Source: an uncultured Spartobacteria bacterium (GTDB taxonomy: Bacteria > Verrucomicrobiota > Verrucomicrobiia > Chthoniobacterales > Chthoniobacteraceae). Taken from it: a stretch of 47,940 nt of DNA. The stretch is from NCBI GenBank assembly GCA_903882875.1, contig CAIRYQ010000082.1, positions 1 through 47,940 on the forward strand, read 5' to 3'. Under the pieces are notes generated by a model. That model was not told the origin of the DNA. It was given only the letters and a program-made list of their open reading frames with translations, and made no database searches. The position numbers and the translations under genes were made by a program. Positions within the stretch are counted from its first letter, which is position 1. Each line of letters starts with the position of its first letter. This document shows positions 10,807-47,940 of this stretch, in pieces.

Positions 10807-11331
10807 ATGCGTTCTCCCGACGAACAACATCATCTCGCGCAGGTGCAGCGGCTTTTCCTCGACCACCAGTCGGCCCTGCGTGCCTACGTGCTGTCGATCG
10901 TGCGGGATTTCGCGCTCGCGCAGGATGTGGTGCAGGAGACGTTTCTCACGGTCACGCGGAAAGCCGGGGAATTCGATCTCGCCACCAATTTCCTGGCCTG
11001 GGCCTGTGCGATTGCGCGATTCGAGGCGCTCTCTGCGCTGCGGCGGGCGAACCGACCGGCGCTCCGTGAGGAGACGCTTGAGCTTTTGTCTGCGAGCGAG
11101 GCGGCGGTGGCACCCGATTATCGTGCGGACTGGCTGAGCAGATGCCTGGCACGGCTGACGCCGACGATTCAGCGGATGATGCGGCTGCGCTATGAGGATG
11201 CTCTGAAGCCTGGTGAAATCGCGAAGCTCCTCGGATGGACGCCAAATGCCGTCTGCGTGGCCACCTCGCGCGCGCGGACGGAACTGCGCAGGTGCATCGA
11301 AACCTTTCAACAACACGAAGCTCAATCATGA
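10807..11331 (+). CDS. ECF RNA polymerase sigma factor, cassette A
   Basis: The 174-residue protein contains sigma region 2 (about residues 15-80, with DVVQETFL and an aromatic NFLAWA stretch) and region 4 (about 115-165, with LRYEDALKPGEIAKLLGW as the helix-turn-helix). There is no region 3, as expected for extracytoplasmic-function sigma factors. The sequence style matches the Rhodopirellula/Verrucomicrobium ECF family (TIGR02989). Its stop overlaps the start of a membrane anti-sigma-like protein (ATGA), so the two should be made in balance. Unlike the other three sigma genes here, it has no GTAAC box upstream; the closest is GGAAAC. It probably drives transcription of the DUF1552/cytochrome genes downstream. 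Confidence 0.85.
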   Translation: MRSPDEQHHLAQVQRLFLDHQSALRAYVLSIVRDFALAQDVVQETFLTVTRKAGEFDLATNFLAWACAIARFEALSALRRANRPALREETLELLSASEAAVAPDYRADWLSRCLARLTPTIQRMMRLRYEDALKPGEIAKLLGWTPNAVCVATSRARTELRRCIETFQQHEAQS

Positions 11332-12323
11332 ACACGGAACGACTCGACCATTTGCTGCGCCAGTATTTCGACGGTGAAATGACGGGCGACGAAATCGCGG
11401 AGCTGGATGCCGCGCTCCACACACGGCCGGAGGTGCGAGAACGCTTCTGGAAGGAGGCGCATGTTCACGGGGCGCTGCGCGAGTGGGGCCTCGAAAGTCT
11501 CGGCAAGATGGAACTCCGTGCACTGCCGTCCCCTGCCCAGGCAATTCGCGGCCATCGCGAAAGGTCACGGTGGCTGTCATGGCGACCGCTGGCGGCAGCC
11601 GCTGCCGGAGTCGTGTTCGGCCTGTTCTGCGCGTCGGTGGCGTGGGCGGTTGCGTCGCCGCGGGCGATGGCGACGGCTTCGCGGTTGTTTGCGCTGGTGG
11701 ATGGGAGTTTTGAAAAGCAGAGCGGACGCTTGCCTTCGGGTTTTCCAGCGCAGTTCGGAGTCTGGAGCGGCGATGAATCGGATGTTGTCGAGAAGCCCTC
11801 GGTGGAGGCCATGGACGGGAAGCGGGCGCTCCGCTTTGTTCGTGCGGAACGGGAACCGGCGCTCCCAAACTACGGCGCAGCTTCGTGTGATGTTTATCAG
11901 TGCGTGGATTTGCGGTCGCTCAAGGCGGATATGACGCCGGGTGAAGCGACGCTGGAGTTGTCCGTGCAATTCCTCGATGCACGGGACGTGAAGGACGAGC
12001 CGGTGAAATTCATCGGCAGGTTGTATGTGTTTTCCGGTTCGCCGGAGTCGCTTCCGGCGGAATGGCCGCTGACGCAGAAGGAGGCGCTGGCGTCGGGTTC
12101 AGGCGCATGCGACAGCACCGGCGGCGCGCCGCGCTCCTGGTGCAACGTCACGACCAAAGTGCTGCTGCCACCGCAGGCAGATTTCGCAGTGGTGCATCTG
12201 GTGGCGCACAAGCCGAAGAATGCTGCCAACACCACGGCCACCTTTGGCGAGCAGTTCGCCGACGATGTGCGGCTGACATTGAAGACTCAGCCGAAATTGC
12301 CGGTGCGCAGCACCTCGCGCTGA
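11328..12323 (+). CDS. Membrane anti-sigma-like sensor with carbohydrate-binding-type ectodomain, cassette A
   Basis: The 331-residue single-pass protein has a cytoplasmic helical domain (residues 1-75, starting ERLDHLLRQYFDGEMT), a transmembrane helix (about 88-107) containing WRPL and a cysteine at 101, and a C-terminal exported domain. The ectodomain begins with a GSFE...GFP...WSGDES stretch (W146). It ends with a tryptophan-led strand, an LPP turn and FADDVRLTL, the pattern of CBM4/9-type and galactose-binding-like beta-sandwiches. Position directly after an ECF gene with ATGA overlap implies that it holds the sigma factor at the membrane until an outside signal is sensed, as FecR or RsgI do. 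The sensing role is inferred, as is the carbohydrate ligand. I chose the ATG at 11328 because longer in-frame starts overlap the sigma gene by nearly 100 bases. Confidence 0.65.
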   Translation: MNTERLDHLLRQYFDGEMTGDEIAELDAALHTRPEVRERFWKEAHVHGALREWGLESLGKMELRALPSPAQAIRGHRERSRWLSWRPLAAAAAGVVFGLFCASVAWAVASPRAMATASRLFALVDGSFEKQSGRLPSGFPAQFGVWSGDESDVVEKPSVEAMDGKRALRFVRAEREPALPNYGAASCDVYQCVDLRSLKADMTPGEATLELSVQFLDARDVKDEPVKFIGRLYVFSGSPESLPAEWPLTQKEALASGSGACDSTGGAPRSWCNVTTKVLLPPQADFAVVHLVAHKPKNAANTTATFGEQFADDVRLTLKTQPKLPVRSTSR

Positions 12324-12332
12324 ATTTTCCAG

Positions 12333-13883
12333 ATGCGCGAAGCCCCTCCAAACCGCCGCATGAGCACACCGCCGGAAAGGCAGCGACCCGCGCGTGAATT
12401 CTCGGTCGCCGAAGCCGCGCGGCTTCTCGGTGCGAATCCGCGCTCGATCCGCGATTGGATTCAATGCGGGCGCTTCGCCGCGCGGCGTGAAGGGCGCAGG
12501 TATTTTTTGAGCGATGCGTTCGTCCGCTCGCTGAAGGCGCACGAGGAGCGCGTGCGGAAATGGCCGCGGCTCGTGGATGTGTCGCGGCGGTTCGGCATTC
12601 ACCGCAATCACGGCGCGTCGCTTTGCCGCGTGGCGGGATTTTCCATCGAGAAGGATCTCACGGACGACTGCCGCATCCCGCCCGAGGCCGAGGCCTGGCT
12701 CGCGGAGCGGATGAAGGCCGAGGCGGCGCGGCGCGACTGGGTGCCGCTCGTCGCGCTCGCGAAGCAGCTCGGCGTGCCGCGCAATGTGCTCGATGGTGGC
12801 ATCCGCAAGCACGGGCTCGCATTTGCAAAGGACTACACCCGGCAGGTCGTCGTCCCGCCTGCGACCGTCGAGTGGCTGTGCGGGTGGCGTCGCAAGCTCG
12901 ACGGCTACCGCTCGGAGGCGACGGAAGCAGGAGACCGCCGTCTGCATCCGATTCATGCGACGGCGGCGAAGGCCGCGGAGAAATTCGCGAAGCGCGGCGA
13001 CGATGCGCACGCGAAGAAGACGCAGGCGCTCATCCATCGCTACCGGTATTGGGCAAAAGAGGGGATGCCGGTGGCGCGCATGGATCGCCAGTTGTTCGTG
13101 GATGAAGCGACGCACGATGCGCTCGTGGACGACGTGAGCCCGATCGAGGCGAGCCGGCTCACGGGGATCAAAATCGGCCGGCTGAAACGATGGGCCGCGA
13201 AGGGAATCGTGCAGCAGACGAAGGTCGCGCCGACGCGGAGGTCGCTCTCATTTTCCAGCGTGCTCGCTGCAGCCGCCGCCTGCGTGAAGGAGGGCCGCAC
13301 CGTCCACGGCGTGCCCGTGCAGATGCTCCTGCCGTGGCCGGAACTGATCGGCCGCCTGTGTCCGCCAGGCGCTGTTTCGCTGGAGCGGATGCTGGAACTT
13401 TCCGCCGATGCGACGCCGCGGGACATCGGGGCGCTGGTCTCGGGCGCGGGTTTCGTGTCGCGCGCTGTCTGGAGAATTCTCGATGACTGGCTGCGCGCGC
13501 GCGAAGCCGGGCGGCTGCCGCCGAAGCCTCCGATGACGACGCAGCAGCACCGCGACGCGCTCACCCGCGCGCCGGAGCTGCCATTCCTGCTCGGCTGGTT
13601 CTCGGGCATCCGCGACGCGCACTTCGCCGCCGTGCTGCGCCCCGGACTGCGCAACCAGGTGAATGGCGACGAACTCACAGCGCTCTGCGGCCATCTCACC
13701 GCGGGCACTCCGGTGCGCGTATATGAACCCGAGCGCGCCTATCGCACGGGCGAGTTTCTCGTGGACTCGAATGGAGAAGACCTCGGCGCAGTCCGCGCGG
13801 CGCACCCGTCGCACATCGAAGTGGAATGGATGCGCCGCGGCGCGCTGAAGATGAGCCACCACGCAACGAACGGCCCCGGATGA
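12333..13883 (+). CDS. Multi-HTH DNA-binding protein with internal repeats, unknown family
   Basis: The 516-residue cytoplasmic protein opens with a MerR/excisionase-type helix-turn-helix (residues 23-60: FSVAEAARLLG, then SIRDWIQCGRF and a basic wing GRRYFL). Two tandem copies of a further unit follow at 77-126 and 136-185. Both run W-P-LV, then a helix ending in FGIHRN or LGVPRN, a G-F/L followed by KD-T, and a PP-W-L ending. A fourth helix-turn-helix-like segment (SPIEASRLTGIKIGRLKRWAAKG) lies near 270-300. The C-terminal half is unrecognised; its last part (about 460-505) looks beta-rich. It starts ten bases after the anti-sigma gene (an ATG at 12360 is an alternative) and precedes the DUF1552 gene, so it may be a second regulator of cassette A. 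I know no described family with this architecture. Confidence 0.6.
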   Translation: MREAPPNRRMSTPPERQRPAREFSVAEAARLLGANPRSIRDWIQCGRFAARREGRRYFLSDAFVRSLKAHEERVRKWPRLVDVSRRFGIHRNHGASLCRVAGFSIEKDLTDDCRIPPEAEAWLAERMKAEAARRDWVPLVALAKQLGVPRNVLDGGIRKHGLAFAKDYTRQVVVPPATVEWLCGWRRKLDGYRSEATEAGDRRLHPIHATAAKAAEKFAKRGDDAHAKKTQALIHRYRYWAKEGMPVARMDRQLFVDEATHDALVDDVSPIEASRLTGIKIGRLKRWAAKGIVQQTKVAPTRRSLSFSSVLAAAAACVKEGRTVHGVPVQMLLPWPELIGRLCPPGAVSLERMLELSADATPRDIGALVSGAGFVSRAVWRILDDWLRAREAGRLPPKPPMTTQQHRDALTRAPELPFLLGWFSGIRDAHFAAVLRPGLRNQVNGDELTALCGHLTAGTPVRVYEPERAYRTGEFLVDSNGEDLGAVRAAHPSHIEVEWMRRGALKMSHHATNGPG

Positions 13884-13954: not shown

Positions 13955-15247
13955 ATGAAACCAAACCTCACCCGCCGCCGTTTCCTCCGCAGCTCATCCG
14001 CCCTCATCGCGCTGCCCGTGCTGGAATCGCTAGGTTTCAAGGCGTTCGCCGCGCCTAAGCTCATCACGCCACCGAAGCGCATGATCTTCCTCGGCTTCGG
14101 CTGGGGGGTGACGAAAGAGACGTGGTTTCCGGACAAGACGAAGACGGGCGCAACCTGGGACTTGCCCGCGGGACTGAAGCCGCTCGCCCGGCATCAGAAG
14201 GACATCACGGTCGTCCAGAATCTCGCGAACCGATTCACGAACGAGGCGCATTGGGGCAGCACCTTCTGGCTCACGGGCGCGAACCGCTACGGCGAGCCGG
14301 GGCAGAGCTTTCACAACAGCGTGTCGGCTGATCAGATCGCGGCGGAGGCGTTCGGCAGGGACACTCGTTTCACTTCGTTGCAGCTCAGCTGCGAGAATGG
14401 CGAGGAGTCCGGGCACGGCCCTGGGCTCTCGCTGGCGTGGGATCGCCGGGGCAAGCCGGTGGCGGGGTTCAACAATCCCGTCGTCGCATTTCACCGGCTC
14501 TTCTCGGACGACACGACTCCGCTCGCGCAGCGGCAGGCGCTGCTCAAGCAGAAGCGCAGCGTGCTCGACACGGTGCTCGATGACGCGGGCAGCGTGGCGC
14601 GCGGCCTGGGCAAGGAGGACAGCGACAAGCTCGCGGAATATTTGCAAAGCATCCGCGACATCGAGGTGAGGCTTTCGAAGGACGAGCAATGGCTGGACAG
14701 ACCGAAGCCGCGTCCCGGCAACGATGTGATGGAGCCAAAGGGCGAGGTCGCGGGCTACGAGGAGATCAAACTCATGTATGCGCTGATGGCTGCCGCGATG
14801 CAGACGGATTCGACGCGCGTGGTGACGTATCGCCAGCCGGTGAGTTCACTGCTGAAGAGCCTCAAGATTCCGTTCTCGCCGCACAACATGAGCCACTACG
14901 GCCCCGGCCCGCGCATGGACGCGAGCCAGCTTCGCGATGCGAAGCAAAGCGAGTTGCTCGCGGGTTTCATTGACAGGCTGAAGGCCACGAAGGAGCCCGA
15001 CGGCAGCACGCTGTTTGACCATACCACGCTCGCCTACGGCAGCAACATCCAGAGCATTCACTATCTGGACAACTGCCCCACGCTCATCACCGGTGGCGGC
15101 TCCGGCGTGAAGCTCGGGCAGCATCTGGTCATGAGCGATCCGAAGACACCGCTGTGCAATCTGTGGCTCACGCTGCTGCGCGGGAACGGCCTCGATGTCG
15201 CGTCGCACGGCGACAGCACGGGGCTGATCAAGGAACTCGTCGCGTGA
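13955..15247 (+). CDS. Tat-exported DUF1552 (HXXSHH-type) protein 1
   Basis: The 430-residue protein begins with a twin-arginine signal (TRRRFLR at 6-12, then a hydrophobic stretch ending near FAA), so it is exported folded. It belongs to DUF1552, a PVC and myxobacterial family also named for an HxxSHH motif, seen here as HNMSHY at 310-315. The conserved early PPKRMIFLGFGWGV segment marks the same subtype as the second DUF1552 protein in this window. Biochemical function is unknown. Family members are nearly always encoded beside a PSD/PSCyt cytochrome, and here one starts ten bases after the stop. The start at 13955 puts the Tat motif at the N-terminus; the longer in-frame extension runs into the HTH gene. 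Confidence 0.85.
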   Translation: MKPNLTRRRFLRSSSALIALPVLESLGFKAFAAPKLITPPKRMIFLGFGWGVTKETWFPDKTKTGATWDLPAGLKPLARHQKDITVVQNLANRFTNEAHWGSTFWLTGANRYGEPGQSFHNSVSADQIAAEAFGRDTRFTSLQLSCENGEESGHGPGLSLAWDRRGKPVAGFNNPVVAFHRLFSDDTTPLAQRQALLKQKRSVLDTVLDDAGSVARGLGKEDSDKLAEYLQSIRDIEVRLSKDEQWLDRPKPRPGNDVMEPKGEVAGYEEIKLMYALMAAAMQTDSTRVVTYRQPVSSLLKSLKIPFSPHNMSHYGPGPRMDASQLRDAKQSELLAGFIDRLKATKEPDGSTLFDHTTLAYGSNIQSIHYLDNCPTLITGGGSGVKLGQHLVMSDPKTPLCNLWLTLLRGNGLDVASHGDSTGLIKELVA

Positions 15248-15257
15248 GCATCGGAGC

Positions 15258-17912
15258 ATGAAATCGGCCGCGATCCTTTTCCTCACCGTCACGACCGCCA
15301 TCGCCGCGCCTCACGAGACGCGCATGGACGAATCGCAGCGTGTCTTTTTCAAAAACTACTGCCTGAAGTGCCACGGCGCGGAAAAGCCGAAGGCCGATGT
15401 GCGCCTCGATGATCTGTCCTTCACCATCGCGGACATTCCGACTGCCGAGCGCTGGCAGAAGGTGCTGAATGCGCTGAACTCCGGCGACATGCCGCCCGAG
15501 GACGAAAAGCAGCCGCGAGCTGCAGAGAAAGCGAAATTCCTCCAGCATCTCTCCGGCACGATGGTCGCGGCGCGGAAGGCGCTCGGCGACACAGGTGGCG
15601 TCATCACGATGCGCCGCCTGAACAAGCGCGAATATGAAAACACGATCGAGGACCTCCTCGGCGTGAAGGTGGATGCGAAGGAGCTCCCGAACGACGGCAG
15701 CAGCGGCACCTTTGACACGTTTGGCAAATCGCTCTTCCTCTCGAGCGATCAGCTCGAGCAATACCTCACGCTCGCCCGCCGTGCGCTCGATCAGGTCATC
15801 GCGACGGGGCCGCGCCCGAAGACGCTGAAGGCGCACATCGAGGCGGAGGACGAGGCGAACCTCCGCATCACGCACATCATGCGGTTTTACCAGATGGGCG
15901 GCTACCGCGCATACAAGCAGTGGAAGGCATCGAATGGCCGGCCGACGACGGACTTCGGCATCGTGGATGAGTCGGAGATCAAATTCCGCCTCTACGTCTG
16001 GGAGCGGAACACGGCGCCGATGATTGATTATCTCACGCGGCCCGAGACGAAGACCGGCGCGCTGCTCACGATTCAGGACAGCAACCCGCAGGTGGGCCTC
16101 GCGATTCCCGATGAAATGCCGCCGGGCCGCTACCGCCTGCGCGCGCGCATCGGCGCGATGCCCAACACCGAGGCCTCGCGGCATTTCGTGGAGCTGGGCG
16201 TGCGCGGGAGATCAATGGAGGACGCGATGAATCTCATCGCGTGCCGGAAAGTGAATGCGCCGCAGAGCAAGCCGGAGGTGATGGAATTCGACATCACGCT
16301 GCCGCGCCTCACGGTGCCGCTCTCCGTGGAGATCGGCCCCGAGACGAAGAAGCAGCTCATTCTCGGCGAGCGCGTTTTCGCATTCCGCGAGCGCATGCCG
16401 AACAACCGCGAGCACGCCGCGCAACTAGCCAGAGTAGCCCACGAACAGACCGGCTTCGGCGTCGAGCCCGCGCTGTGGATTGACTGGGTGGAATGGGAGG
16501 GGCCGCTCTTCGATGCGTGGCCGACCGCCGCGCACTCGCGCATCTTTTTCAAAGGCGAGACCGCGGCCCGGGACGACGCGTATGCACGCGAGATTCTCGC
16601 GCGCTTCGCAGCGGCGGCATTCCGCGGCAAGGAGGTGAAGCCGAGCTACCTCGACAAGCTCGTCGCGCATTTCCGAGAAAAGCGCGACGAGGGCGAGAGC
16701 TTCGAGCAGGCGATGAAGGAGCCGCTCAGCATCGTCCTCGCGTCGCCGAGTTTTCTTTACCTCAATGAGATCGGCAGCGCGGCGGGCCGCGAGACGAAGG
16801 CTGCGGGTGATGTGAAGCCGGTGAGTTTCACCGCGCCGGGCGGCGATGCTCCGCCGTCCCGCTCGCGTGTGCCTTTGTCCGGCACCGAACTCGCCACGCG
16901 GCTTTCCTACTTCCTCTGGAGCGGGCCGCCGGACGACGGGCTGCTGTCGCTCGGAAAATCCGGCGAACTCACGCAACCCGCCGTGCTGCACGCGCAGACC
17001 CGGCGGTTGCTCGCATCGCCGAAGGCATGGCGCTTCATCACCGGCTTCACGCATCAGTGGCTCGGCATGGAGCGGCTGGATTTTTTCCAGTTCAATTCGC
17101 GTCTCTATCCCGGCTTCGACGACAGCGTGAAGCGGGCCGCGCGCGACGAGGTGCTGCACACAATGCACACCATCTTGACGGAGAACCATCCCGTCACATC
17201 GCTGCTCAAGGCGGACTTCGTCGTCATCAACGACCTGCTCGCCGACTACTACGGCCTAAAATCCGAGGGGCGTGATTTTCACAAAGTCCTGGTGCCGCCG
17301 GGAACGCCGCGCGGCGGACTGCTCGGCATGGCCGCCGTGCTCGCGATGGGTTCGGACGGCGAACGCTCGTCGCCGGTCGAGCGCGGTGCGTGGGTGCTGC
17401 GAAAACTCTTGCACGATCCGCCGCCGCCCGCGCCGCCGAATGTGCCGCAGCTCAGCAGGCATTCCGGCAAGCTCCTTTCCGCCCGCGAACTGCTCACCGC
17501 GCACATGGAGGAGCCGCAGTGCGCGCAGTGCCATCAGCGCATTGACCCCATCGGCTACGGGCTGGAGCACTTCAATGCCGCCGGCCTCTGGCGCGATGTC
17601 GAGGTCGCCGAAATCGCCAGCGGCTACAGCGTGCGCAAATCGAAGGAGCACCCGATCGATGCAAGCGGCACGCTCTCGGACGGGACAAAGTTCGACGGCT
17701 TCTTCCAGCTCCGCGACGCCATCGCCAAACGCGAAAAAGCCTTCGCGCTCGGGCTCATCGAAAACCTCGTGAGCTACGCCCTCGGCCGCCCATCGCAGTT
17801 GTCCGACGACGACCTCTGCGCCGACATCCTGCTCCAGGCCCGCAAGGACAAGCTCACGCTCCCAACGATCATCCACGCCCTCGTCGGCAGTCGCGAATTT
17901 CAGAGCAAGTGA
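15258..17912 (+). CDS. Secreted PSD/PSCyt cytochrome (DUF1587-1595-1592-1588-1585) 1
   Basis: The 884-residue exported protein has a signal peptide (1-17) and two c-type haem sites, CLKCH at 35-39 and CAQCH at 755-759. Domains in order are PSCyt1-like (about 20-100), DUF1587/PSD3 (about 118-172, MRRLNKREYENT), a beta-rich insert, DUF1595/PSD5 (about 435-500), DUF1592/PSD4 (about 540-660, LATRLSYFLWSGPPDD), DUF1588/PSCyt3 with the second haem site, and DUF1585/PSD2 (about 795-884). Such proteins abound in Planctomycetes and Verrucomicrobia and have no proven activity; two haem sites suggest electron transfer during oxidative attack on a substrate. It is paired with the DUF1552 gene upstream. 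It shares the GTFDTFGKSLFLS subtype signature with the cytochrome at 18734. Confidence 0.88.
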   Translation: MKSAAILFLTVTTAIAAPHETRMDESQRVFFKNYCLKCHGAEKPKADVRLDDLSFTIADIPTAERWQKVLNALNSGDMPPEDEKQPRAAEKAKFLQHLSGTMVAARKALGDTGGVITMRRLNKREYENTIEDLLGVKVDAKELPNDGSSGTFDTFGKSLFLSSDQLEQYLTLARRALDQVIATGPRPKTLKAHIEAEDEANLRITHIMRFYQMGGYRAYKQWKASNGRPTTDFGIVDESEIKFRLYVWERNTAPMIDYLTRPETKTGALLTIQDSNPQVGLAIPDEMPPGRYRLRARIGAMPNTEASRHFVELGVRGRSMEDAMNLIACRKVNAPQSKPEVMEFDITLPRLTVPLSVEIGPETKKQLILGERVFAFRERMPNNREHAAQLARVAHEQTGFGVEPALWIDWVEWEGPLFDAWPTAAHSRIFFKGETAARDDAYAREILARFAAAAFRGKEVKPSYLDKLVAHFREKRDEGESFEQAMKEPLSIVLASPSFLYLNEIGSAAGRETKAAGDVKPVSFTAPGGDAPPSRSRVPLSGTELATRLSYFLWSGPPDDGLLSLGKSGELTQPAVLHAQTRRLLASPKAWRFITGFTHQWLGMERLDFFQFNSRLYPGFDDSVKRAARDEVLHTMHTILTENHPVTSLLKADFVVINDLLADYYGLKSEGRDFHKVLVPPGTPRGGLLGMAAVLAMGSDGERSSPVERGAWVLRKLLHDPPPPAPPNVPQLSRHSGKLLSARELLTAHMEEPQCAQCHQRIDPIGYGLEHFNAAGLWRDVEVAEIASGYSVRKSKEHPIDASGTLSDGTKFDGFFQLRDAIAKREKAFALGLIENLVSYALGRPSQLSDDDLCADILLQARKDKLTLPTIIHALVGSREFQSK

Positions 17913-17944
17913 GAGACGCCGACACCGCAACGCATTTTACGATC

Positions 17945-22618: not shown

Positions 22619-22681
22619 TCGTCAGCCCCGAAACGAGTGGGCTGGCGTGGGGCGCGCTGCTTACTTTTTTTACAAAAGATC

Positions 22682-22708
22682 GTAACGCTCGTGCAGTCGC
22701 GGGTGTAG
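22682..22708 (+). promoter_or_regulatory. Candidate ECF promoter of cassette B
   Basis: GTAAC (22682-22686) lies 33 bases before the GTG start of the sigma gene, and TGTAG (22704-22708) follows after 17 bases. GTAAC is a typical ECF -35 core (the AAC motif). The same box precedes the sigma genes of cassettes C and D, which suggests self-activation. Confidence 0.45.
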
Positions 22709-24297: not shown

Positions 24298-24314
24298 AGC
24301 GCCTCCATTTTCCC

Positions 24315-40570: not shown

Positions 40571-41140
40571 ATGACGCCTGATCCAAATCCAAATAACGGC
40601 GCGATGGATGACGACGCACTCGACCAGCAGGTGCGGACGTTTCTGGCCGCACGCCCGTTGATTCAGGCACACATCGGTTCGCTCGTGCGTGATGCGGCGT
40701 TGGCGGAGGATGTGTTTCAGGAGGTGTGGATTCGGTTTGAACGCGTCACGCGACGAGGCGAGATCGTTGCGAATGTGCCAGCCTGGTGCCGGGCAGCCGC
40801 GAGGTTGGTAGCGTTGGAAAGCTGGCGGCGGCAAGGCCGGGAGCAGGCCACGGAGGATGAGGAACTGGCTGCGCTCGTCGAGCAGGCTTACGAGGACCAG
40901 GATGTGCAGGCCGAAATTTGGGGGGCGCGCAGTGCGGCGCTAAAGCATTGCCTTGATCTGCTGCCCGACCGTTCACGCGATCTAGTCACCCGCCGCTATC
41001 GCGATGGCCAGCCGCTCGCTGAAATCGCCGACCAACTTAGCCAAAGCCTCGGCAGTGTGAAGACGGCGATGTGCCGCCTGCGACTCGCGCTGGCAGAGTG
41101 CGTCCGCAAACGTCTCGCATCAAATCCCGCATGCTCATGA
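40571..41140 (+). CDS. ECF RNA polymerase sigma factor, cassette D
   Basis: The 189-residue protein has region 2 (about 28-95: LAEDVFQEVWIRFERV and VPAWCRAAARLVALESW) and region 4 (about 130-180: RRYRDGQPLAEIADQL, SVKTAMCRLRLAL). It is preceded by a GTAAC box and a clear AGGAG ribosome-binding site. The stop overlaps the membrane anti-sigma-like gene by four bases. It is nearer in style to the cassette B sigma factor. It probably controls the DUF1552/cytochrome pair and the DUF1080 fusion that follow. Confidence 0.86.
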   Translation: MTPDPNPNNGAMDDDALDQQVRTFLAARPLIQAHIGSLVRDAALAEDVFQEVWIRFERVTRRGEIVANVPAWCRAAARLVALESWRRQGREQATEDEELAALVEQAYEDQDVQAEIWGARSAALKHCLDLLPDRSRDLVTRRYRDGQPLAEIADQLSQSLGSVKTAMCRLRLALAECVRKRLASNPACS

Positions 41141-42054
41141 ACGAAACTCGCCTGGAAGAACTGCTCCTTGCCTACGAGGACAATACGCTCCGCTCTGATG
41201 AACTGACTGAGTTCAAGCATCTCCTTCGTTCATCTCCTGCGGCACGCGAACGCCTCGTCGAAGCGGGGGTGCTGCAAAGCGTTGCCAAGAGTCACTTCTT
41301 TATCGAGGCGGCCGCTGCGCAGCTTCCAACGAAACAGAATCGCTTGTTTCAATGGCGTCCGCTCATGGCTGCGGCGGCGGGGATTGTTTTGGGGATGTTC
41401 TGCACGTCGGTGGTGTTTGGTTATGTGGGGCCGCGTGTGGTGGAGAAGGTGAAGGCGGTGTTCAGTGAGGGCTTTGAATCAGGCATGACGAAGACCGCAC
41501 CCGGAGTGCCGCGTGTTGCTGGACAGTGGAGCGGCGATGAGGCGGAGGTGGTCACCTCGACCCCGGAGGTGAAGGCGCATGGCGGTGCGAAGATGCTGCG
41601 CTTTCTCAGTGCGACCTATCCGGGTGAGAACTCGCCACGCAGTCAGTGGGGGGATGTGTATCGCATCGTGGATGTGCGCGGGCTGGCCGGTGCGGGGAGC
41701 ACGGTGGCGCGGGTGTCGGCAAGTTTTGCGCAGGGAGTGGTGACGGGGGAGGAAAGGTTCGCGTGCAGGGTTGGAGCTTATGCGTTGGATCAGGATTTGA
41801 GCACGCTGCCATCGTCGCTGAACCACACGTGGTTGCAGCAAAACAACAGCGCGACGGGTTCACGCAGAGCGGTGCTCACGGGCACTGGCCGGTGGCAGGA
41901 AGTTTCCGTCGAGCTGCCGATCACGCGTGAGACGCGCTTTGTGGTCCTGCATCTCGCGGTGGTTCAAGAGCAGCCCACACTCAATTCCGGAGTCGTGCAG
42001 TTTAGCGGTCACTTCATGGACGACGTGAAGGTGGAGCTGATCACGCGGCCTTGA
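41137..42054 (+). CDS. Membrane anti-sigma-like sensor with carbohydrate-binding-type ectodomain, cassette D
   Basis: The 305-residue single-pass protein is the shortest of the four. It has a cytoplasmic helical domain (1-70, ETRLEELLLAYEDNTL), a transmembrane helix (about 77-96) with WRPLMAAAAG and cysteine 89, then FGYVGP as in cassette B, and an ectodomain with EGFESG, WSGDEAEVV (W131) and a terminal tryptophan-led strand and FMDDVKVEL. Starts at 41131 and 41137 are both in frame; 41137 is chosen because it reproduces the ATGA overlap seen in the other cassettes. The anti-sigma role is inferred from coupling to the ECF gene. Confidence 0.65.
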   Translation: MNETRLEELLLAYEDNTLRSDELTEFKHLLRSSPAARERLVEAGVLQSVAKSHFFIEAAAAQLPTKQNRLFQWRPLMAAAAGIVLGMFCTSVVFGYVGPRVVEKVKAVFSEGFESGMTKTAPGVPRVAGQWSGDEAEVVTSTPEVKAHGGAKMLRFLSATYPGENSPRSQWGDVYRIVDVRGLAGAGSTVARVSASFAQGVVTGEERFACRVGAYALDQDLSTLPSSLNHTWLQQNNSATGSRRAVLTGTGRWQEVSVELPITRETRFVVLHLAVVQEQPTLNSGVVQFSGHFMDDVKVELITRP

Positions 42055-42132: not shown

Positions 42133-43443
42133 ATGTCCCACCCTCATCCATCCCACGGCCCCTCCTCCAAACAGCACGCTCTGAATCGCCGCCAGTTTCT
42201 ACGCGCGGGCTCGGCGGTGCTGGCGCTGCCGTTTCTCGAAGCCCTCGCGCCGCGACTGGCTCGCGGAGCCGCCGCGCCGCCGCCAAAACGCATGGTGTGC
42301 ATCATGACGAACACCGGTCTGCTGCCGGATAACTTCTGGCCGAAGCAGACAGGCAAGGCGTTCGAGCCATCGCGTTATCTCGCGCATCTGGAGCCGGTGC
42401 GCGGGCGCTACTCGGTGATGAACGGGCTCTCGCACCCGGACAACTCTGGCGGGCATGTGGTGGAGAAGAGCTTCCTCACCGGTGCGCGGTTTCCGTCGTC
42501 CGCCGTTTTCAAGAACAGCATCTCTGTCGATCAGCTCGCGGCGGAGTCGCTCGGTCATCACACTCGGTTCCCCTTTCTCGCGCTTGGCGTAAATGGCCAG
42601 CACGACGGGTTGCTCTCCGTCTCGCGTGATGGCGTATTCATCCCGCCAGAGCTGAGCCCGGCCAAGGTGTATCAGCGGCTCTTCACCCCGGACACGGCAG
42701 CAGAGAGCGAGCAACGGATGCGCGAAATCGGCCAGCGGGTGAGCACGCTCGACTTCGTGAATGAGAAGGCGAAGCGGCTCTCGCGCAGCCTTGGTGCGGA
42801 GGATCGTGCGCGGCTCGACCAGTATCTCACCTCGGTGCGCGAGCTGGAGCAGCGGCTGGAGCAGGCGCGGGTGTGGCAGCAGCGGGAAAAGCCGCGCGTC
42901 GCCGTGCCTCAGCCGCAGGACATCCTGGATAACACGCAGGACGTGGATCGCGCCCGGCTGATGTATGACATGACTTTGCTCGCCCTCCAGAGCGACAGCA
43001 CACGCATCGTCACGCTGTATCTGAATCCGCTGGAGGTCCTCGTGAAGTTGCCAGGCATGAGCGACCGCACGCACACGCTCACGCATCACGGCAATGAGCC
43101 GGAGAAGCTAGAACAACTCGCCAAAGTCGAGGAAGCGGGGCTGAAGAATCTCGGCCGCTTCCTCGCGGGGCTCGCTGCGGTGAATGAAGGCGGCAGCAGC
43201 CTGCTTGACGACACAGCGGTGCTCTTTGGCTCGAACATGTCGAACGGCAGCAATCACTCGAACGTGAACCTGCCGGTCCTCCTCGCAGGCGGTCGCTTCA
43301 AGCATGGGCAGCACCTGCAGTTTGATCTGAAGAACAACACACCGCTTTGCAATCTCTTCGTCTCCATGCTTCAGCACATGGGCGTGGAGCGCGATGTCTT
43401 CTCCACAAGCACGGGAACTCTCAGCGGACTGGAAATGGCATGA
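42133..43443 (+). CDS. Tat-exported DUF1552 (HXXSHH-type) protein 4
   Basis: The 436-residue protein has a twin-arginine signal that starts unusually late (NRRQFLR at 18-24). It is of the second subtype: KRMVCIMTNTGLLP, FKNSISVDQLAAE and an HxxTHH motif (HTLTHH at 314-319), close to DUF1552 protein 3. The stop overlaps the start of a cytochrome of the matching subtype by four bases, the tightest coupling of the four pairs. Activity is unknown. Confidence 0.85.
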   Translation: MSHPHPSHGPSSKQHALNRRQFLRAGSAVLALPFLEALAPRLARGAAAPPPKRMVCIMTNTGLLPDNFWPKQTGKAFEPSRYLAHLEPVRGRYSVMNGLSHPDNSGGHVVEKSFLTGARFPSSAVFKNSISVDQLAAESLGHHTRFPFLALGVNGQHDGLLSVSRDGVFIPPELSPAKVYQRLFTPDTAAESEQRMREIGQRVSTLDFVNEKAKRLSRSLGAEDRARLDQYLTSVRELEQRLEQARVWQQREKPRVAVPQPQDILDNTQDVDRARLMYDMTLLALQSDSTRIVTLYLNPLEVLVKLPGMSDRTHTLTHHGNEPEKLEQLAKVEEAGLKNLGRFLAGLAAVNEGGSSLLDDTAVLFGSNMSNGSNHSNVNLPVLLAGGRFKHGQHLQFDLKNNTPLCNLFVSMLQHMGVERDVFSTSTGTLSGLEMA

Positions 43444-46148
43444 GACGCGGTGCATTTCCCCTCCTCCTCGCATCGCTTTTTCAATTCCTGCCGGCCACAC
43501 TCATCGCAGCTGATGCGGAGCTACGTGGCTATCTGGAGACGCATTGTTTCGACTGCCACGACTCGACGACGAAGAAAGGCGGGCTCGATCTGGAGTCGCT
43601 GCCGATGCAGCTCGACGCACGCGAGCGATTCGACAATTGGGCGCTCGTCCATGACCGCATCGCCGCCGGTGAAATGCCGCCGAAATCGCGCAAAGCGCGT
43701 CCTTCCGAAAAGGAAAACGCCGATGCGCTGAAGCGGCTTGATGACCGCCTGCACGACGCCGATGCTGCGGTCATCGCGAAGACAGGGCGTGCACTGTTCC
43801 GCCGCCTCTCTGCGCAAGAGTTCGAGAATGCGCTGCGCGATCTGCTCCATCTGCCCGGCCTGCGGATCAAGCAACTGCTGCCCGAAGACGAGCGCCGCCA
43901 TGGCTTCAACAAGATCGGCCAGGCGCTCGATCTCTCGAACGTGCATCTCAGCCAGTTCATGGACGCGACGGACCTCGCGCTCACCGCCGCCATCGCCACG
44001 CGCAGCACGCCGCCGCCGGTGTTGCGCCAGCGCTACGGCGGGGCCACCGGTTCGGAGACTTGGAACTGGATGGCGCATGGCAGTGCCGTGCTACTGAAGG
44101 ACAAGCAATACGATCCTGTCGTGCCACTGCCCGACCCGGAGGACGATCTCAACGCCAACGGCAACCTCAAAAGATCCCGCTACGCCGCGTTCGGCAAAGT
44201 CCTCCGCGACTACCCGCACGCCGCTGGCTTCTTCACCGGCGCGATCCATCGTCCGATGATTTTTTCGCTGCAATTCTCGCCCATCTACGCGGGCCAGTAT
44301 CGCATCCGCACCTCCGCGTGGGGCTTCTGGTGGGACCGTGGCAAAGTGGAGCCGCCGCACCGCAATGAGTCCTTCGCGCTCACCGCATGGATGCCCATGG
44401 AAGGTCCGCGTTTTGTTCACACGCCGTCGCGCTGGCTCGGCCTCTTTGACGCGCCGTCACTCGAAAGCCGCATCCACGAATACCAGGGCTGGTTCGATGT
44501 GAACGAGGAACTGGTCTTTGACATCGGCACCTTGAACGGCCACGAGAAAACCACCGGGCGCTTCCCCGGCGACGCGAAGGGCTCCTGCACTGTCTATAGC
44601 GGCCCCGGCATCGCCCTTGATTGGTTTGAAGTGGAAGGCCCGATCTTCGAGCAATGGCCGCCGCGCAGCCACACCGCGATCTTCGGCGATTTGCCGATTC
44701 GCCCGCTCGCAAAAGACAGCGACCTCATCCCTCCAAAACGCACGCCGGTGCGGCAGCGTTCGCGTTCGGGCATGGCCCGTCCGACCAACGCTTCGATCCC
44801 AAGGGAAGAGCAGGAGCCGCCGCTGGAGAGTGTCATCACCGCGCATCCGCACGAGGACGCCACGCGCCTGCTCGCGCAGTTCCTTCCGCGCGCGTTCCGT
44901 CGTCCCGTCACGGCAGAGGAAGTGCAGGGCTATGTGCAAATCGTCGCGCGCGAACTGGAAGGTCACGCGTGCTTCGAGGATGCGATGAAGGAAGCGTGCA
45001 AGGCCGCGCTGTGCTCCACGGATTTCCTCTTCGTCGGCGGCGACACCATCGCCGATGCGAAGGCCTCACGCCCTCGACTCACCGACCGTGCCCTCGCCGA
45101 GCGCCTTGCGCTTTGGCTCTGGAACAGCGTGCCCGACGAGGAACTCCTCGCGCTCGCCAGCGAAGGCCGCCTGCATCTTCCCGAGAACCTCAAAAAGCAA
45201 AGCGACCGCCTGCTCGCAGACGCGCGCTCAGACCGCTTCATCGCCGACTTCACCGACCAATGGCTCGACCTGCGGAAAATCGACGCCACCCAGCCGGACC
45301 AGAAGATTTACCCCGAGGCTCGTTCGCCTCTGAAGCAAAGCATGATCGCCGAAACCCGCGCCTACCTGCGCGAGCTGATCACGAAGAACCTCAGCGTCAC
45401 GCACCTCGTGAAATCGGACTTCGCGATGCTCAATCAAAGCCTCGCGATTCACTACGGCGTTCCCGGCGTCACGGGTTGCGACATCCGCCGCGTTCCCCTG
45501 CCGCAAGACAGTCCGCGCGGCCCCTTTCTCACGCAGGCTGCCGTGTTGAAAGTCACTGCCAACGGCACCACCACCTCACCGGTCACACGCGGCGCATGGA
45601 TCAATGAGCGCATCCTCGGCAACGTCATCCCGCCGCCACCCGCCGGCGTGCCCGCCCTCGATCCAGACACGCGCGGTGCCACCACGATCCGCGAGAAGCT
45701 GGAGAAGCATCGCTCCGACGCACGCTGTGCCGGTTGCCACGCGAAGATCGACCCGCCAGGTTTCGCGCTGGAGAGCTTCGATGTCATCGGTGGTTTCCGC
45801 GACCGCTACCGCTCGCTGAGCGCGGGCAACACGTTGGTCGATTTCCACTTCGACTCTGGCTTCAACCCCAGAGTCCGTCTGAACCAACCCGTCGATCCCT
45901 CCGGCCAGCTCCCCAGCGGCGAGCCCTTCCAAAACCTCGCCGACTTCCAATCCCTCGTCCTGCGCCACCCCGAAGCCCTCGCCGCCAACATGACGCGTCA
46001 GCTCCTGATGTATGCCACCGGCTCCGAGCCCCACTACTCCGACCGCCGCGAAATCACCCGCATCCTCGCGCAGACAAAGCCGAGTAACTACGGCCTCCGC
46101 TCCCTCATCGACGCCATCGTGCAGAGCGAGCTGTTCCTCACGAAGTAA
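43440..46148 (+). CDS. Secreted PSD/PSCyt cytochrome 4
   Basis: The 902-residue protein has a signal peptide (about 1-23), haem sites CFDCH at 36-40 and CAGCH at 763-767, DUF1587 from about 120 (FRRLSAQEFENALRD), a long middle insert, DUF1595 near 465-530, DUF1592 from about 547 (LAERLALWLWNSVPDE), DUF1588 and DUF1585. Subtype markers (KKGGLDL, HGFNKIGQALDLS) match the cytochrome at 37892. The ATG at 43440 is chosen because it begins the signal peptide and is coupled to the DUF1552 stop. Electron-transfer function is inferred from the two haem sites. Confidence 0.88.
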   Translation: MRRGAFPLLLASLFQFLPATLIAADAELRGYLETHCFDCHDSTTKKGGLDLESLPMQLDARERFDNWALVHDRIAAGEMPPKSRKARPSEKENADALKRLDDRLHDADAAVIAKTGRALFRRLSAQEFENALRDLLHLPGLRIKQLLPEDERRHGFNKIGQALDLSNVHLSQFMDATDLALTAAIATRSTPPPVLRQRYGGATGSETWNWMAHGSAVLLKDKQYDPVVPLPDPEDDLNANGNLKRSRYAAFGKVLRDYPHAAGFFTGAIHRPMIFSLQFSPIYAGQYRIRTSAWGFWWDRGKVEPPHRNESFALTAWMPMEGPRFVHTPSRWLGLFDAPSLESRIHEYQGWFDVNEELVFDIGTLNGHEKTTGRFPGDAKGSCTVYSGPGIALDWFEVEGPIFEQWPPRSHTAIFGDLPIRPLAKDSDLIPPKRTPVRQRSRSGMARPTNASIPREEQEPPLESVITAHPHEDATRLLAQFLPRAFRRPVTAEEVQGYVQIVARELEGHACFEDAMKEACKAALCSTDFLFVGGDTIADAKASRPRLTDRALAERLALWLWNSVPDEELLALASEGRLHLPENLKKQSDRLLADARSDRFIADFTDQWLDLRKIDATQPDQKIYPEARSPLKQSMIAETRAYLRELITKNLSVTHLVKSDFAMLNQSLAIHYGVPGVTGCDIRRVPLPQDSPRGPFLTQAAVLKVTANGTTTSPVTRGAWINERILGNVIPPPPAGVPALDPDTRGATTIREKLEKHRSDARCAGCHAKIDPPGFALESFDVIGGFRDRYRSLSAGNTLVDFHFDSGFNPRVRLNQPVDPSGQLPSGEPFQNLADFQSLVLRHPEALAANMTRQLLMYATGSEPHYSDRREITRILAQTKPSNYGLRSLIDAIVQSELFLTK

Positions 46149-46161
46149 GACCACACCAATC

Positions 46162-47940
46162 ATGAAACGCATACTCACATTCCTCACCGCCTTCACCGTC
46201 GCTATCGCTACACTCACTCACGCTGCCGATGACGGGTTCGAATCGATCTTCGATGGCCAAACCCTGAAAGGCTGGCATGTCAGTGCCAAGTCCGGCCATA
46301 GCCGCGCCAGCAACAATAAAACCGGTGGCGACTGGAAGGTGGTGGACGGCGCGCTCACTGGCACGCAGGACATCCCCGGCAATGGCGGCATCATCCTGAC
46401 AGATGCGAAGTATTCCGAGTTTGAGATCACGCTGGAGATGAACAACGACTTCGGCCCGGATAGCGGGCTCTTCCTTCGCTGCACCGAGGACGGCAAGTGT
46501 TACCAGGGACTCATCGATTTCCATCCCGGCGGCAGCCTCATGGGCCTTTACGGCGAGGGTCTCGGCGGCAAGCCTCACTTCCGCTTCTTCAACTTCGGAA
46601 AGACCGAGAGCGATATCATCCTCACTCCCGACCGCACGCCACAGCCGGTGGCGATGACGCCTGAGCAATGGAAGACCTTCTGGGAAGCGGATGGCTGGAA
46701 CGAGTTCAAGATGCGCATCACTGGCGGCGACAAGCCCACCATCACCACCTGGATCAACGGCATGCAGATCATGACGTGGACGGAGACGGAGGCACGCCTG
46801 CCCATCGCAGGACACATAGGCCTCCAAGTGCATGGCGGTGGCAACGAGGTCGGACGCTTTGTGCGCTACCGAAACATCCGCATCAAGAACCTCGCGGCTC
46901 CAACTGCACAGCCAGCCGAAAGCCCCGCGCCATTGTCCGTCGGGTGCCAAGCGTTCACCTTCAATCGCTTCACGGTCTATGAGGCCATCGAGAAGACGGC
47001 GGAGGCGGGCGGGACGGTGATCGAGTTCATCTCCGGCCAGAGACTCATCAAAGCAGAGCCGGGGAAGCTCAGTCCCGACATGAGCGATGAGCAACTCGCG
47101 GCGTTGCATGCGCATTTGAAAAAGCACGGCGTCGCACCGGCGAGCCTCTTCATCGGCATCCCGAATGATGAGGCGGGCGCGAGGAAGGTTTTCGAGTTTG
47201 GCAAGCGGCTCGGGGTGAAGTCGTTCAGCATGGGGCTCGTTCCCGATCAGCTCGACCTGCTGGAGAAGATGGTGAAGGAGTTCGACATCCGTGTGGGCTT
47301 CCACAATCACGGAAAGACGCCGCTGAATCGCACTTGGGACCCGGCTTTCGTCCTCGACGTGGTGAAGAATCGCGATGCGCGTCTCGGTTTGTGTGCCGAC
47401 ACGGGGCACTGGGCGACCTCGGGGCTGAATGCGCTGGATGCGATCAAGCTGGTCGAGGGACGCATCATCAATCTGCATCTCAAGGACCGCGCCGTCGTCG
47501 GTCAGGCGTCCACCGATCTCATCCTCGGCACAGGCGTGACAGACATCGCCGGGATCGTCGCGGAACTGCGGCGGCAGAAGTTCGCAGGCTCCATCTTCGT
47601 GGAATACGAGACGAACTGGCTGAACAGCGTGCCGGATGTAAAGCAGTGCATCGAGTTCATCCATCATCCGGTGGCGAAATCGGCGAGCGCTTCACCCCCG
47701 TCGTCCCCCGATGCTGCGCAGACTCCCGAGTTCCATCTCGACGTGCCGGGCTTGAAAGCCGTGGTCATCGACAGCGACGAGCGCGAGTCCTTCCTCGGGC
47801 TGCAACTCGACAGCGCCGGGCGGCTCTTTGCGGGCTGCCGCGAGGCGCTGTTTGTGTATGAGCCTGCGCCGGGCGGACTGTATGCGCCGCGCCAGTTGCT
47901 CTTCCGTTTTCCGAAGGACGCGTGGGTGTATGACATCGCG
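46162..47940 (+). CDS. DUF1080 - TIM-barrel isomerase - dehydrogenase-type fusion (partial, runs off window)
   Basis: The frame is open from the ATG to the window end (593 codons). After a signal peptide (about 1-21) comes a DUF1080 domain (3-keto-disaccharide hydrolase family, about 25-243: FESIFDGQTLKGW, FGPDSGLFLRC, ITTWINGMQI). After an Ala/Pro linker comes a sugar-phosphate isomerase/epimerase-type TIM barrel (about 258-503) with metal-site motifs VGFHNHG, CADTGHW, NLHLKDR and FVEYE. A second linker leads to the start of a beta-propeller domain (LQLDSAGRLFAG, ending near WVYDIA), as in PVC membrane-bound dehydrogenase-type proteins that often end in a cytochrome. DUF1080 and isomerase domains act together in 3-keto-glycoside processing. 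The C-terminus lies outside the window. Confidence 0.8.
   Translation, partial: MKRILTFLTAFTVAIATLTHAADDGFESIFDGQTLKGWHVSAKSGHSRASNNKTGGDWKVVDGALTGTQDIPGNGGIILTDAKYSEFEITLEMNNDFGPDSGLFLRCTEDGKCYQGLIDFHPGGSLMGLYGEGLGGKPHFRFFNFGKTESDIILTPDRTPQPVAMTPEQWKTFWEADGWNEFKMRITGGDKPTITTWINGMQIMTWTETEARLPIAGHIGLQVHGGGNEVGRFVRYRNIRIKNLAAPTAQPAESPAPLSVGCQAFTFNRFTVYEAIEKTAEAGGTVIEFISGQRLIKAEPGKLSPDMSDEQLAALHAHLKKHGVAPASLFIGIPNDEAGARKVFEFGKRLGVKSFSMGLVPDQLDLLEKMVKEFDIRVGFHNHGKTPLNRTWDPAFVLDVVKNRDARLGLCADTGHWATSGLNALDAIKLVEGRIINLHLKDRAVVGQASTDLILGTGVTDIAGIVAELRRQKFAGSIFVEYETNWLNSVPDVKQCIEFIHHPVAKSASASPPSSPDAAQTPEFHLDVPGLKAVVIDSDERESFLGLQLDSAGRLFAGCREALFVYEPAPGGLYAPRQLLFRFPKDAWVYDIA

Follow-up and report, generated by a model that had tools for sequence, protein, structure and literature searches.

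Two described signaling systems come closest to the locus studied here. In FecI/FecR-type cell-surface signaling, an extracytoplasmic function (ECF) sigma factor is followed by a single-pass membrane regulator with an N-terminal, cytoplasmic sigma-binding domain. The second is SigI/RsgI biomass sensing in Clostridium thermocellum, which is reported (PMC4711584, PMC6056542, PMC12203970) to employ paralogous sigma/anti-sigma pairs. Our locus lies on a stretch of 47,940 nucleotides (nt) from an uncultured Spartobacteria bacterium (contig CAIRYQ010000082.1 of assembly GCA_903882875.1; this whole stretch is called the window below), where a preliminary description had recognized four ECF sigma genes, each abutting or overlapping the gene of a single-pass membrane protein with a beta-sandwich ectodomain. 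The resulting cassettes share with SigI/RsgI the presence of several paralogous sigma/anti-sigma pairs per genome, an outside sensor and enzyme genes as output, whereas they differ in that the window sigma factors are closest to the ECF family TIGR02989 and in that the enzyme genes stand directly behind the pair. No Pfam match to RsgI_N, which we take to be the domain name of RsgI, was obtained in the four window membrane proteins down to E ≤ 5 with the HMMER filters on. The parallel to SigI/RsgI drawn previously thus holds as a functional likeness and not as membership.

We consider it probable that these cassettes are modular circuits of an ECF sigma factor and a membrane anti-sigma factor, in which a domain resembling carbohydrate-binding modules (CBMs) senses a poly- or oligosaccharide and whose heads are exchanged at the transmembrane (TM) segment. 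The head would comprise promoter-like upstream DNA, the sigma gene and the cytoplasmic sigma-binding domain of the anti-sigma factor, most likely as a self-contained, autoregulated switch. The body would carry signal and output, with the conserved TM segment joining the head to the CBM-like ectodomain and genes for exported carbohydrate-attacking enzymes behind it. The four sigma/anti-sigma pairs of the window are the following.

10807..11331, + strand: ECF sigma 1, head of cassette 1 (Sigma70_r2, E 9.9e-14; r4_2, E 2.2e-8)
11328..12323, + strand: anti-sigma 1, with anti-sigma-like domain, TM segment and CBM-like ectodomain, by homology to the modelled anti-sigma 3
22715..23242, + strand: ECF sigma 2 (Sigma70_r2/r4_2; TIGR02989, 153.8 bits)
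23248..24297, + strand: anti-sigma 2, mosaic (ectodomain 87% and 84% identical to those of L021 and L029, whose sigmas are 27% and 29% identical)
30213..30758, + strand: ECF sigma 3 (Sigma70_r2/r4_2; TIGR02989, 129.7 bits)
30755..31774, + strand: anti-sigma 3 (model mdf58cf6eae15), with predicted anti-sigma-like helices at residues 8-72, TM segment at 98-126 and CBM-like beta-sandwich at 129-328 (model and fold searches)
40571..41140, + strand: ECF sigma 4 (Sigma70_r2/r4_2; TIGR02989, 94.2 bits, below cut-off)
41137..42054 (start at 41131 or 41137), + strand: anti-sigma 4, mosaic (ectodomain 87% identical to that of L065, whose sigma is 24% identical)

All four sigma factors reach the Pfam cut-offs for Sigma70_r2 and r4_2 (sigma 2 exactly at the cut-off for r4_2) and have TIGR02989, the Rhodopirellula/Verrucomicrobium family, as best NCBIfam match, whose curated cut-off of 124.55 bits is passed by sigmas 2 and 3 and not by sigma 1 (121.1 bits) or sigma 4. 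Each is followed by a protein with one strong hydrophobic (TM) segment at a spacing of -4, +5, -4 and -4 nt in cassettes 1 to 4 (or -10 nt in the last, counting from the earlier of the two anti-sigma 4 starts), which bears out the gene arrangement first described. The genome of origin (5.78 Mb in 129 contigs, 96.18% complete) holds 26 Sigma70_r2 matches, 25 of them over the cut-off. By our own arithmetic from this density, about 0.13 sigma factors would be expected in these 30 kb, where four are found.

The linkage of the two genes is near-invariant among relatives. A first set of relatives, most of them from metagenome-assembled genomes (MAGs), was gathered with TM patterns; its members and the window proteins served to build a profile of the ectodomain only, which matched at 101 places in 21 of 40 genomes of the family, five of them in the own genome (88 of the 96 matches outside it were retrieved, and 8 fragments or partial rows were left out). 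Across both searches and the window, duplicates included, a sigma open reading frame (ORF) lies directly upstream and on the same strand of 204 of 210 ectodomain ORFs. The other six start at a sequence edge and have no upstream DNA, five at contig ends (two of these being one gene twice) and one, L069, at the end of the retrieved locus. After removal of duplicates, 151 unique pairs remained, 118 of which overlap by exactly 4 nt. In a further phylum-wide sample, at least 10 of 240 genomes match, a lower bound given that only 13 candidates were scored in large genomes, and 13 of 14 ectodomain ORFs again have a sigma gene upstream, the 14th lying at a contig end.

Four cassettes in a row are not a conserved unit, because a fifth copy lies on another contig of the own genome and few contigs carry several matches: more than one complete ectodomain-profile match was found only on the window's contig (4), on two contigs of a second genome (3 on G003:C7, 2 on G003:C35) and on one contig of a third (2 on G004:C17). 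Neighboring pairs of cassettes also occur in L026, L049 and L053. The earlier picture of an "array" of sensors is overstated, since relatives are mostly single cassettes. Within the genus (G000, G025-G033), seven of nine other genomes lack an ectodomain-profile match, compared with five matches in the own genome, and this patchy presence suggests frequent gain and loss. Some cassettes come from public MAG records that bear the name Akkermansia muciniphila or Klebsiella pneumoniae in their titles (L009, L011, L017, L025, L032, L038, L041, L068, L070); in our judgement the names look like those of mislabelled bins.

The central and most surprising result, absent from the preliminary description, concerns which parts of these cassettes descend together. 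In the first 65 pairs, distances between sigma factors correlate with those between anti-sigma domains (r = 0.80) and far less with those between ectodomains (r = 0.22), and identities among the 151 members give the same picture (r = 0.74 and 0.24). Wherever two anti-sigma domains are at least 60% identical, so are their sigma factors (94 of 94 pairs), a co-descent that agrees with the previous reading of the gene pairs as sigma/anti-sigma cassettes. Ectodomains follow another course: among 139 pairs with ectodomains at least 70% identical, the sigmas reach 60% in 44 and fall below 45% in 65, and among 144 pairs with sigmas at least 70% identical, the ectodomains reach 60% in 62 and fall below 45% in 68. 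The pairs counted are not independent of each other, and the two discordant counts leave out pairs in which a region is missing. When the comparison is confined to the 91 members whose genomes were searched with the ectodomain-only profile, a set not selected for discordance, 21 of 37 ectodomain-similar and 9 of 46 sigma-similar pairs are discordant. Clustering at 70% identity places at least two sigma clusters in 17 of 25 multi-member ectodomain clusters and at least two ectodomain clusters in 26 of 31 sigma clusters. At the extremes, L076 and L081 share 94% of their ectodomain at 41% sigma and 24% anti-sigma domain identity, and L017 and L021 share 95% of their sigma and 92% of their anti-sigma domain at 37% ectodomain identity.

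Topology tests agree with these counts. For the 91 members, placing the ectodomain alignment on the sigma tree costs 4627 log-likelihood units, so that this tree is rejected; the cost to the anti-sigma domain is 70 units on the sigma tree (Shimodaira-Hasegawa test p 0.30, approximately unbiased test p 0.03) and 1178 units on that of the ectodomain. A test of 70 members, restricted to taxa already in a discordant pair, agrees. In the window, anti-sigmas 2 and 4 pair similar ectodomains with unrelated sigmas as given above, sigma 2 itself being 93% identical to the sigma of L032, and the ectodomain of anti-sigma 1 is 74% identical to that of L007 with a sigma identity just under 45%. For anti-sigma 3, no discordant pair was found at thresholds of the type ectodomain ≥70%/sigma <45%. 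Concordant relatives exist as well: L026 ("uncultured Verrucomicrobia bacterium") with anti-sigma 4 (sigma 98%, ectodomain 100%), L030 with anti-sigma 2 (97% and 91%) and, in the phylum sample, L222 with L061 (92% and 75%). Within genomes, sigmas of at least 60% identity are found in 2 of 316 pairs, compared with 304 of 10,859 between genomes, and ectodomains of that similarity in 4 of 316 compared with 243 of 10,859; because orthology inflates the between-genome counts, we do not claim an avoidance of similar heads in one genome. The six most similar ectodomain pairs within genomes (59-81%) carry sigmas of 21-33% identity.

We located the breakpoints by fitting two segments to the nucleotide identity of each pair along the gene, pairs with a missing region included, and express them in codons relative to the tryptophan of a WRPL motif. 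For ectodomain-shared pairs the step in identity is upward, 0.40 to 0.80, with a median position of -3 and with 66 of 66 breakpoints between -10 and +34; for the 71 sigma-shared pairs it is downward, 0.74 to 0.42, with a median position of +26 and 47 of 71 breakpoints in the same range. It is the TM codons, then, that both kinds of pair have in common. The TM segment also has the highest identity in the 91-member set (0.43, compared with 0.23-0.29 elsewhere); TM conservation seen in the first set of relatives was set aside, as TM patterns had selected that set. To judge from these alignments, the anti-sigma factors are mosaics in which the sigma factor and anti-sigma domain stay together and ectodomains are exchanged at the TM codons, and window cassettes 1, 2 and 4 are such mosaics. 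Conserved segments serve as junctions for the swapping of a variable part in polymorphic toxins and in the specificity subunits of type I restriction systems as well; here, by comparison, it is a sensor, often with its enzymes, that is swapped against a sigma head and its upstream DNA. Among the matches listed in a search of open-licence PMC, there was no description of CBM-type anti-sigma factors in Planctomycetes-Verrucomicrobia-Chlamydiae bacteria or of TM-centered exchange.

The DNA flanking the two genes travels with one half or the other. Similarity over the 150 nt upstream of the sigma gene was seen for 29 of 70 sigma-shared and 31 of 39 both-shared pairs, compared with none of 65 ectodomain-shared pairs and 48 of 9519 pairs sharing neither part. 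Sharing seldom reaches into the gene region beyond, where it was found for 3 of 31 sigma-shared pairs, none of 26 ectodomain-shared pairs, 7 of 23 both-shared pairs and 38 of 3354 neither-shared pairs. In each of nine sigma clusters examined (those of sigmas 3 and 4 not among them), a short conserved block lies close to the sigma start, and five of the nine have blocks of their own, among them the clusters of sigmas 1 and 2 of the window.

10768..10780, + strand: candidate promoter footprint of sigma 1, TGCTAAGRATCGG (conserved ahead of the sigma gene across a cluster of 5 sigmas)
22681..22693, + strand: candidate promoter footprint of sigma 2, CGTAACGCTNGTG (conserved across a cluster of 5 sigmas)

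Searched as exact strings, the two footprints have a single genomic copy apiece, beside the sigma gene to which they belong; variant targets elsewhere would escape such a search. Downstream, homology over the next 2 kb was seen for 44 of 64 ectodomain-shared pairs, 30 of which reach 80% identity, and for 24 of 33 both-shared pairs, compared with 6 of 63 sigma-shared pairs, none of which reaches 60%. That the ectodomain often keeps its downstream genes fits a sensor matched to its cassette, and adjacency alone would also give this pattern. Since a crossover in the TM codons would move ectodomain and enzymes together by physical adjacency, the downstream sharing is consistent with functional matching and does not prove it. 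DUF1552/PSD genes are enriched behind the anti-sigma factors, at 69 of 249 in-operon genes compared with 39 of 477 other genes.

What the ectodomain senses is suggested by its predicted fold. Anti-sigma 3 was modelled from an alignment of 71 sequences (67 of 68 listed relatives, with L094 left out, and the four window proteins), with a mean predicted local distance difference test score (pLDDT) of 83.8 and values of at least 90 in 12 of 21 ten-residue blocks from residue 131 on; the other three window proteins, homologous along their length and 29-47% identical to the first, were placed by homology to it. The comparison with CBM folds that had been proposed as a check was thus run for anti-sigma 3. 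The modelled ectodomain looks like a CBM-type beta-sandwich: by VIA Z it matches the C-terminal domain of EndoMA1 (14.6), Fbs2 (14.0), CBM61 (13.9), CBM16 (13.0), CBM4 (12.9) and CBM22 (12.1), and by Foldseek Fbs1 (E 1.3e-6), CBM22 (8.9e-5), CBM4 (1.7e-4), CBM61 (2.0e-4) and CBM16 (4.9e-4). Profiles are silent on this fold: none of the 71 members has a Pfam CBM match at E ≤ 0.01, and the window ectodomains have no Pfam family. Searches against PDB sequences likewise gave nothing significant: the best match of the profile is a xylanase C chain (a CBM22 protein, E 0.017), and RsiW appears at E 0.042, weak leads that point the same way as the later fold searches. The cytoplasmic domain, modelled alone at a pLDDT of 83.5, resembles anti-sigma domains at modest scores. 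Among its structural matches the class I anti-sigma factors RsiW (Z 6.5, 69 of 70 residues), MucA (Z 5.8) and RslA (Z 4.4) rank first, second and sixth.

Of the alternatives to a modular saccharide-sensing circuit, the one that survives best is that the signal recognized by the ectodomain is no glycan and might, for instance, be a peptide, envelope damage or one of the cassette's exported enzymes. The fold is common to non-sugar proteins, DUF1552 and PSD have no informative relative in our PDB searches, and nothing is known of the functions of PSCyt genes according to passages of He et al. 2017 (PMC5615132). On the other hand, 29 of the 50 fold matches listed are CBMs, Fbs-type sugar-recognition domains or glycoside hydrolases, and members of the GH95, GH29-like, SGNH, sulfatase, SASA esterase and 3-keto-disaccharide hydrolase families are encoded in the cassettes of the window or of its relatives. 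We regard a non-glycan signal as possible, if the less likely option by a clear distance; because the fold also occurs in non-sugar proteins, glycan binding is something that we infer from it.

A second alternative arises from related heads on other bodies. The own genome encodes sigma/membrane pairs whose sigmas match the profile of the window sigmas and whose ectodomains are of the FecR (L093, L097), FecR plus LamG (L098), LamG (L096) or RskA_C (L095) type, in contrast to the CBM-like sandwich without Pfam family in the window. Altogether 12 sigma-like ORFs lack a CBM-type partner, 10 of them distinct once two repeats are removed (L006, a repeat of L093, and L151, a cut-off copy of that of L166). 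Four of the ten are at least 70% identical to a CBM-type sigma, three with FecR bodies (L097, 82.6% to L018; L056, 77% to L060; L093, 71.7% to L014) and one, L063, with an unscanned partner (70% to L113). The LamG-type L096 follows at 61% (to L108) and the FecR plus LamG protein L038 at 58% (to L219); the remaining four (L185, L095, L194, L098) reach 34-40%. In the FecR cases, the resemblance of the membrane proteins dies away within the TM segment or shortly behind it, and L093 has DUF1552 and PSD output genes behind its FecR-type partner. In one further membrane protein, L234 (G274), FecR-like sequence recognized by eye stands ahead of the CBM-like ectodomain.

It might be argued from these sister proteins, from L234 and from a match of one of 71 members to DUF4880 (E 0.008), presumably the FecR N-terminal domain, that the cassettes perform FecI/FecR-type signaling, with the membrane protein relaying a signal from a TonB-dependent transducer. 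Yet no FecR domain (PF04773) was matched in the four window proteins in the search to E ≤ 5, nor is it among the five families matched by the 71 members at E ≤ 0.01. The STN domain of FecA-type transducers was not found at E ≤ 0.001 in the own genome at its given completeness, while 4 of 14 control genomes match it, and the four TonB barrel matches all lie on other contigs. FecI/FecR-type relay is therefore improbable in our view, and of the FecR parallel drawn earlier the kinship with sister proteins bearing FecR and LamG ectodomains stands, and FecR-type ectodomains or transducers in the window cassettes do not.

A third possibility is that the mosaics are chimeras of metagenome assembly, in which paralogues were mis-joined at the conserved TM-coding stretch; nearly all named relatives are MAGs, and the junction is the most conserved stretch of the gene. 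The exact DNA shared by discordant partners in the TM segment is short, with a median of 14 nt and a maximum of 27 nt in ectodomain-shared and 34 nt in sigma-shared pairs (up to 36 nt in a wider stretch around it), an argument against mis-joining by the assembler. For ten pairs, a combination that takes part in a swap recurs in another genome, at ≥85% in both halves. The isolate Chthoniobacter flavus Ellin428, with one such cassette (L051), shows discordance in both directions at lower identity (sigma 68% and ectodomain 27% to L108; ectodomain 62% and sigma 29% to L025). Genomes of 30-40 contigs likewise have similar sigmas on different ectodomains (G226, G238, G105; sigma 68-77% with ectodomain 22-28%), and upstream DNA and downstream genes track the two halves consistently. 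Taking both sides into account, we consider assembly chimeras very improbable. Least of all do we credit an absence of recombination, with TM conservation and discordance arising from unequal rates in an old paralogous family: both parts do evolve fast (mean identity over members 0.31 for sigma and 0.28 for ectodomain), but the topology tests, the jump in mean nucleotide identity from 0.40 to 0.80 at one point and pairs as extreme as L076/L081 already contradict it.

Several results nevertheless weigh against the modular-circuit reading. The breakpoints of 24 of 71 sigma-shared pairs lie outside the TM range, and a TTTTTCGGCA-type block is common to four of the nine sigma clusters, so that footprints are not always head-specific. 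Downstream genes are loosely homologous in 1474 of 8917 neither-shared pairs (89 at ≥60%), and 50 of 124 pairs with ectodomains at least 70% identical lose their homology in the first 30 nt after the anti-sigma stop. In Pfam scans of genes drawn at random (96 of 116 downstream and 118 of 413 control genes, with the first 25 families listed), sulfatases, the commonest Pfam family of the other downstream genes, are hardly enriched (13 of 96 compared with 12 of 118). The own-genome FecR plus LamG pair L098 has no close CBM-type sigma (34%). On the structural side, 15 of the 50 fold matches listed for the ectodomain are stig cyclases (Z about 13) and one is Cry1Ac (11.9), all non-sugar proteins, and five more are phage proteins; the Z values of the anti-sigma domains stay below 8 and thus below a firm level for helical bundles, the Foldseek search with the cytoplasmic domain gave no match at E ≤ 0.001, and zf-HC2 matches only 5 of 71 members, marginally, which sets them apart from the class I anti-sigma factors.

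If the cassettes are modular sensor circuits, they might work as follows. In the absence of ligand, the anti-sigma factor would keep the sigma factor at the membrane; ligand binding would lead to proteolysis by an RseP-kind M50 protease, or to a conformational change, and the freed sigma factor would transcribe its own operon, enzymes included. Sigma binding, the glycan ligand, proteolytic release and autoregulation of the whole cassette are steps that we infer. M50 protease matches are present in the own genome and also in all 14 control genomes, and an RseP-kind M50 protease is encoded in most bacteria. Because the head would carry its own promoter and sigma gene, it could be exchanged without breaking the circuit. 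Repeated recombination within the TM codons would then have placed related sensors, often with their cassettes, behind unrelated heads, and related heads in front of unrelated bodies, FecR and LamG sensors included. If this is true, nature has made chimeric anti-sigma factors by the dozen, presumably functional ones, from which one could learn at what points a sensor may be parted from its switch and attached to another; promoter, sigma factor and anti-sigma domain would then suggest themselves as one portable head. It would help to explain the rewiring of carbohydrate sensing in these bacteria, provide a parts list for sigma-based biosensors and allow the substrate of the unexplained DUF1552/PSCyt enzymes to be guessed from the adjoining sensor.

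The presumed output of the four circuits is encoded by the genes behind each pair.

12507..13883 (ORF start possible at 12333), + strand: HTH_17/excisionase-type helix-turn-helix protein, cassette 1 (HTH_17, E 1e-8; TIGR01764, E 8e-6, below cut-off)
13955..15247, + strand: DUF1552 (HXXSHH) protein with Tat-like signal recognized by eye, cassette 1 (PF07586, E 2e-75)
15258..17912, + strand: PSCyt1/DUF1587/1592/1588/1585/1595 protein, cassette 1 (Pfam)
17909..18709, + strand: DUF1080 protein, 3-keto-disaccharide hydrolase-like, weak match, cassette 1 (PF06439, E 1.7e-4, below cut-off)
18734..21277, + strand: second PSCyt1/PSD protein, cassette 1 (Pfam)
21338..22618, + strand: second DUF1552 protein, cassette 1 (PF07586, E 2e-73)
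24318..25166, + strand: SGNH/GDSL hydrolase, cassette 2 (PF13472, E 5e-10)
25163..27508, + strand: GH95 protein, cassette 2 (PF22124, E 1e-130)
27639..29864, + strand: large protein of 741 amino acids (aa) with C-terminal GH29-like (alpha-L-fucosidase) region, cassette 2 (PF01120, E 4.8e-18, residues 474-735, profile positions 92-335 of 345)
31779..33041, + strand: DUF1552 protein, cassette 3 (PF07586, E 7e-78)
33108..34949, + strand: SGNH/GDSL hydrolase with two matched stretches, cassette 3 (PF13472, E 8e-48)
34978..36474, + strand: pectate-lyase-like beta-helix protein, cassette 3 (PF12708, E 8e-11)
36471..37895, + strand: exported protein with the shared type of signal peptide, cassette 3, a candidate propeller only by the preliminary description
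37892..40489, + strand: PSCyt1/PSD protein, cassette 3 (Pfam)
42133..43443, + strand: DUF1552 protein, cassette 4 (PF07586, E 4e-79)
43440..46148, + strand: PSCyt1/PSD protein, cassette 4 (Pfam)
46162..47940, + strand: fusion of DUF1080 and a xylose-isomerase-like TIM barrel, running off the window end (PF06439, E 1.4e-25; PF01261, E 4.6e-15)

By Pfam, these include four DUF1552 and four PSCyt/PSD (DUF1592) proteins, GH95, a partial GH29, two SGNH hydrolases and a pectate-lyase-like beta-helix. The enzyme list given before is thereby largely borne out, with GH29 reduced to a partial match and the DUF1080 of cassette 1 to one below the cut-off, and so is the claim that export-targeted enzymes follow each pair, except that anti-sigma 1 is followed first by the HTH_17 protein, which sits directly after it and ahead of the enzyme genes. 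The propeller at 36471-37895 stays a candidate label, since there is no Pfam match at E ≤ 5 and the best PDB sequence match has E 0.23. From the family names, the DUF1080 and isomerase-like barrel domains suggest a 3-keto-sugar route. PSCyt genes near sulfatases and CBMs have been described in freshwater Verrucomicrobia, in passages of He et al. 2017 whose main text does not contain the term "sigma factor".

Cassette 2 may hold a second joint. Homology between window positions 24206-24460 and L021:5376-5627 runs through the end of the ectodomain and the signal peptide of the next gene and ends about 166 nt after the anti-sigma stop, where an SGNH hydrolase in the window stands against a tetratricopeptide repeat protein in L021; to all appearances this joint is at the signal peptide. 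Non-homologous exported proteins (window genes starting at 27639, 36471 and 37892, and proteins of L060, L072, L047 and L071) share a near-identical signal peptide, approximately MKxTLTLLTALLLAPLAALHAAD. In 17 non-homologous representatives picked by the core motif of this peptide, nucleotide identity beside the motif is 0.56/0.53; the corresponding values of 47 other signal peptides are 0.37/0.34, and the mature part reaches 0.27. It is tempting to speculate that the DNA of hydrophobic segments, both anti-sigma TM segments and signal peptides, acts as a general joint, like introns in exon shuffling, by which heads, sensors and enzymes are freely combined into new sense-and-degrade circuits, the heads being exchanged so that circuits in one genome do not interfere; we hold this wider idea only tentatively. 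Just upstream of the cassettes, window positions 1335-10138 carry conjugation or type IV secretion system-like genes (CagX-like, below cut-off; TrbI, E 6e-18) and an ORF of 1723 aa with ResIII/helicase matches.

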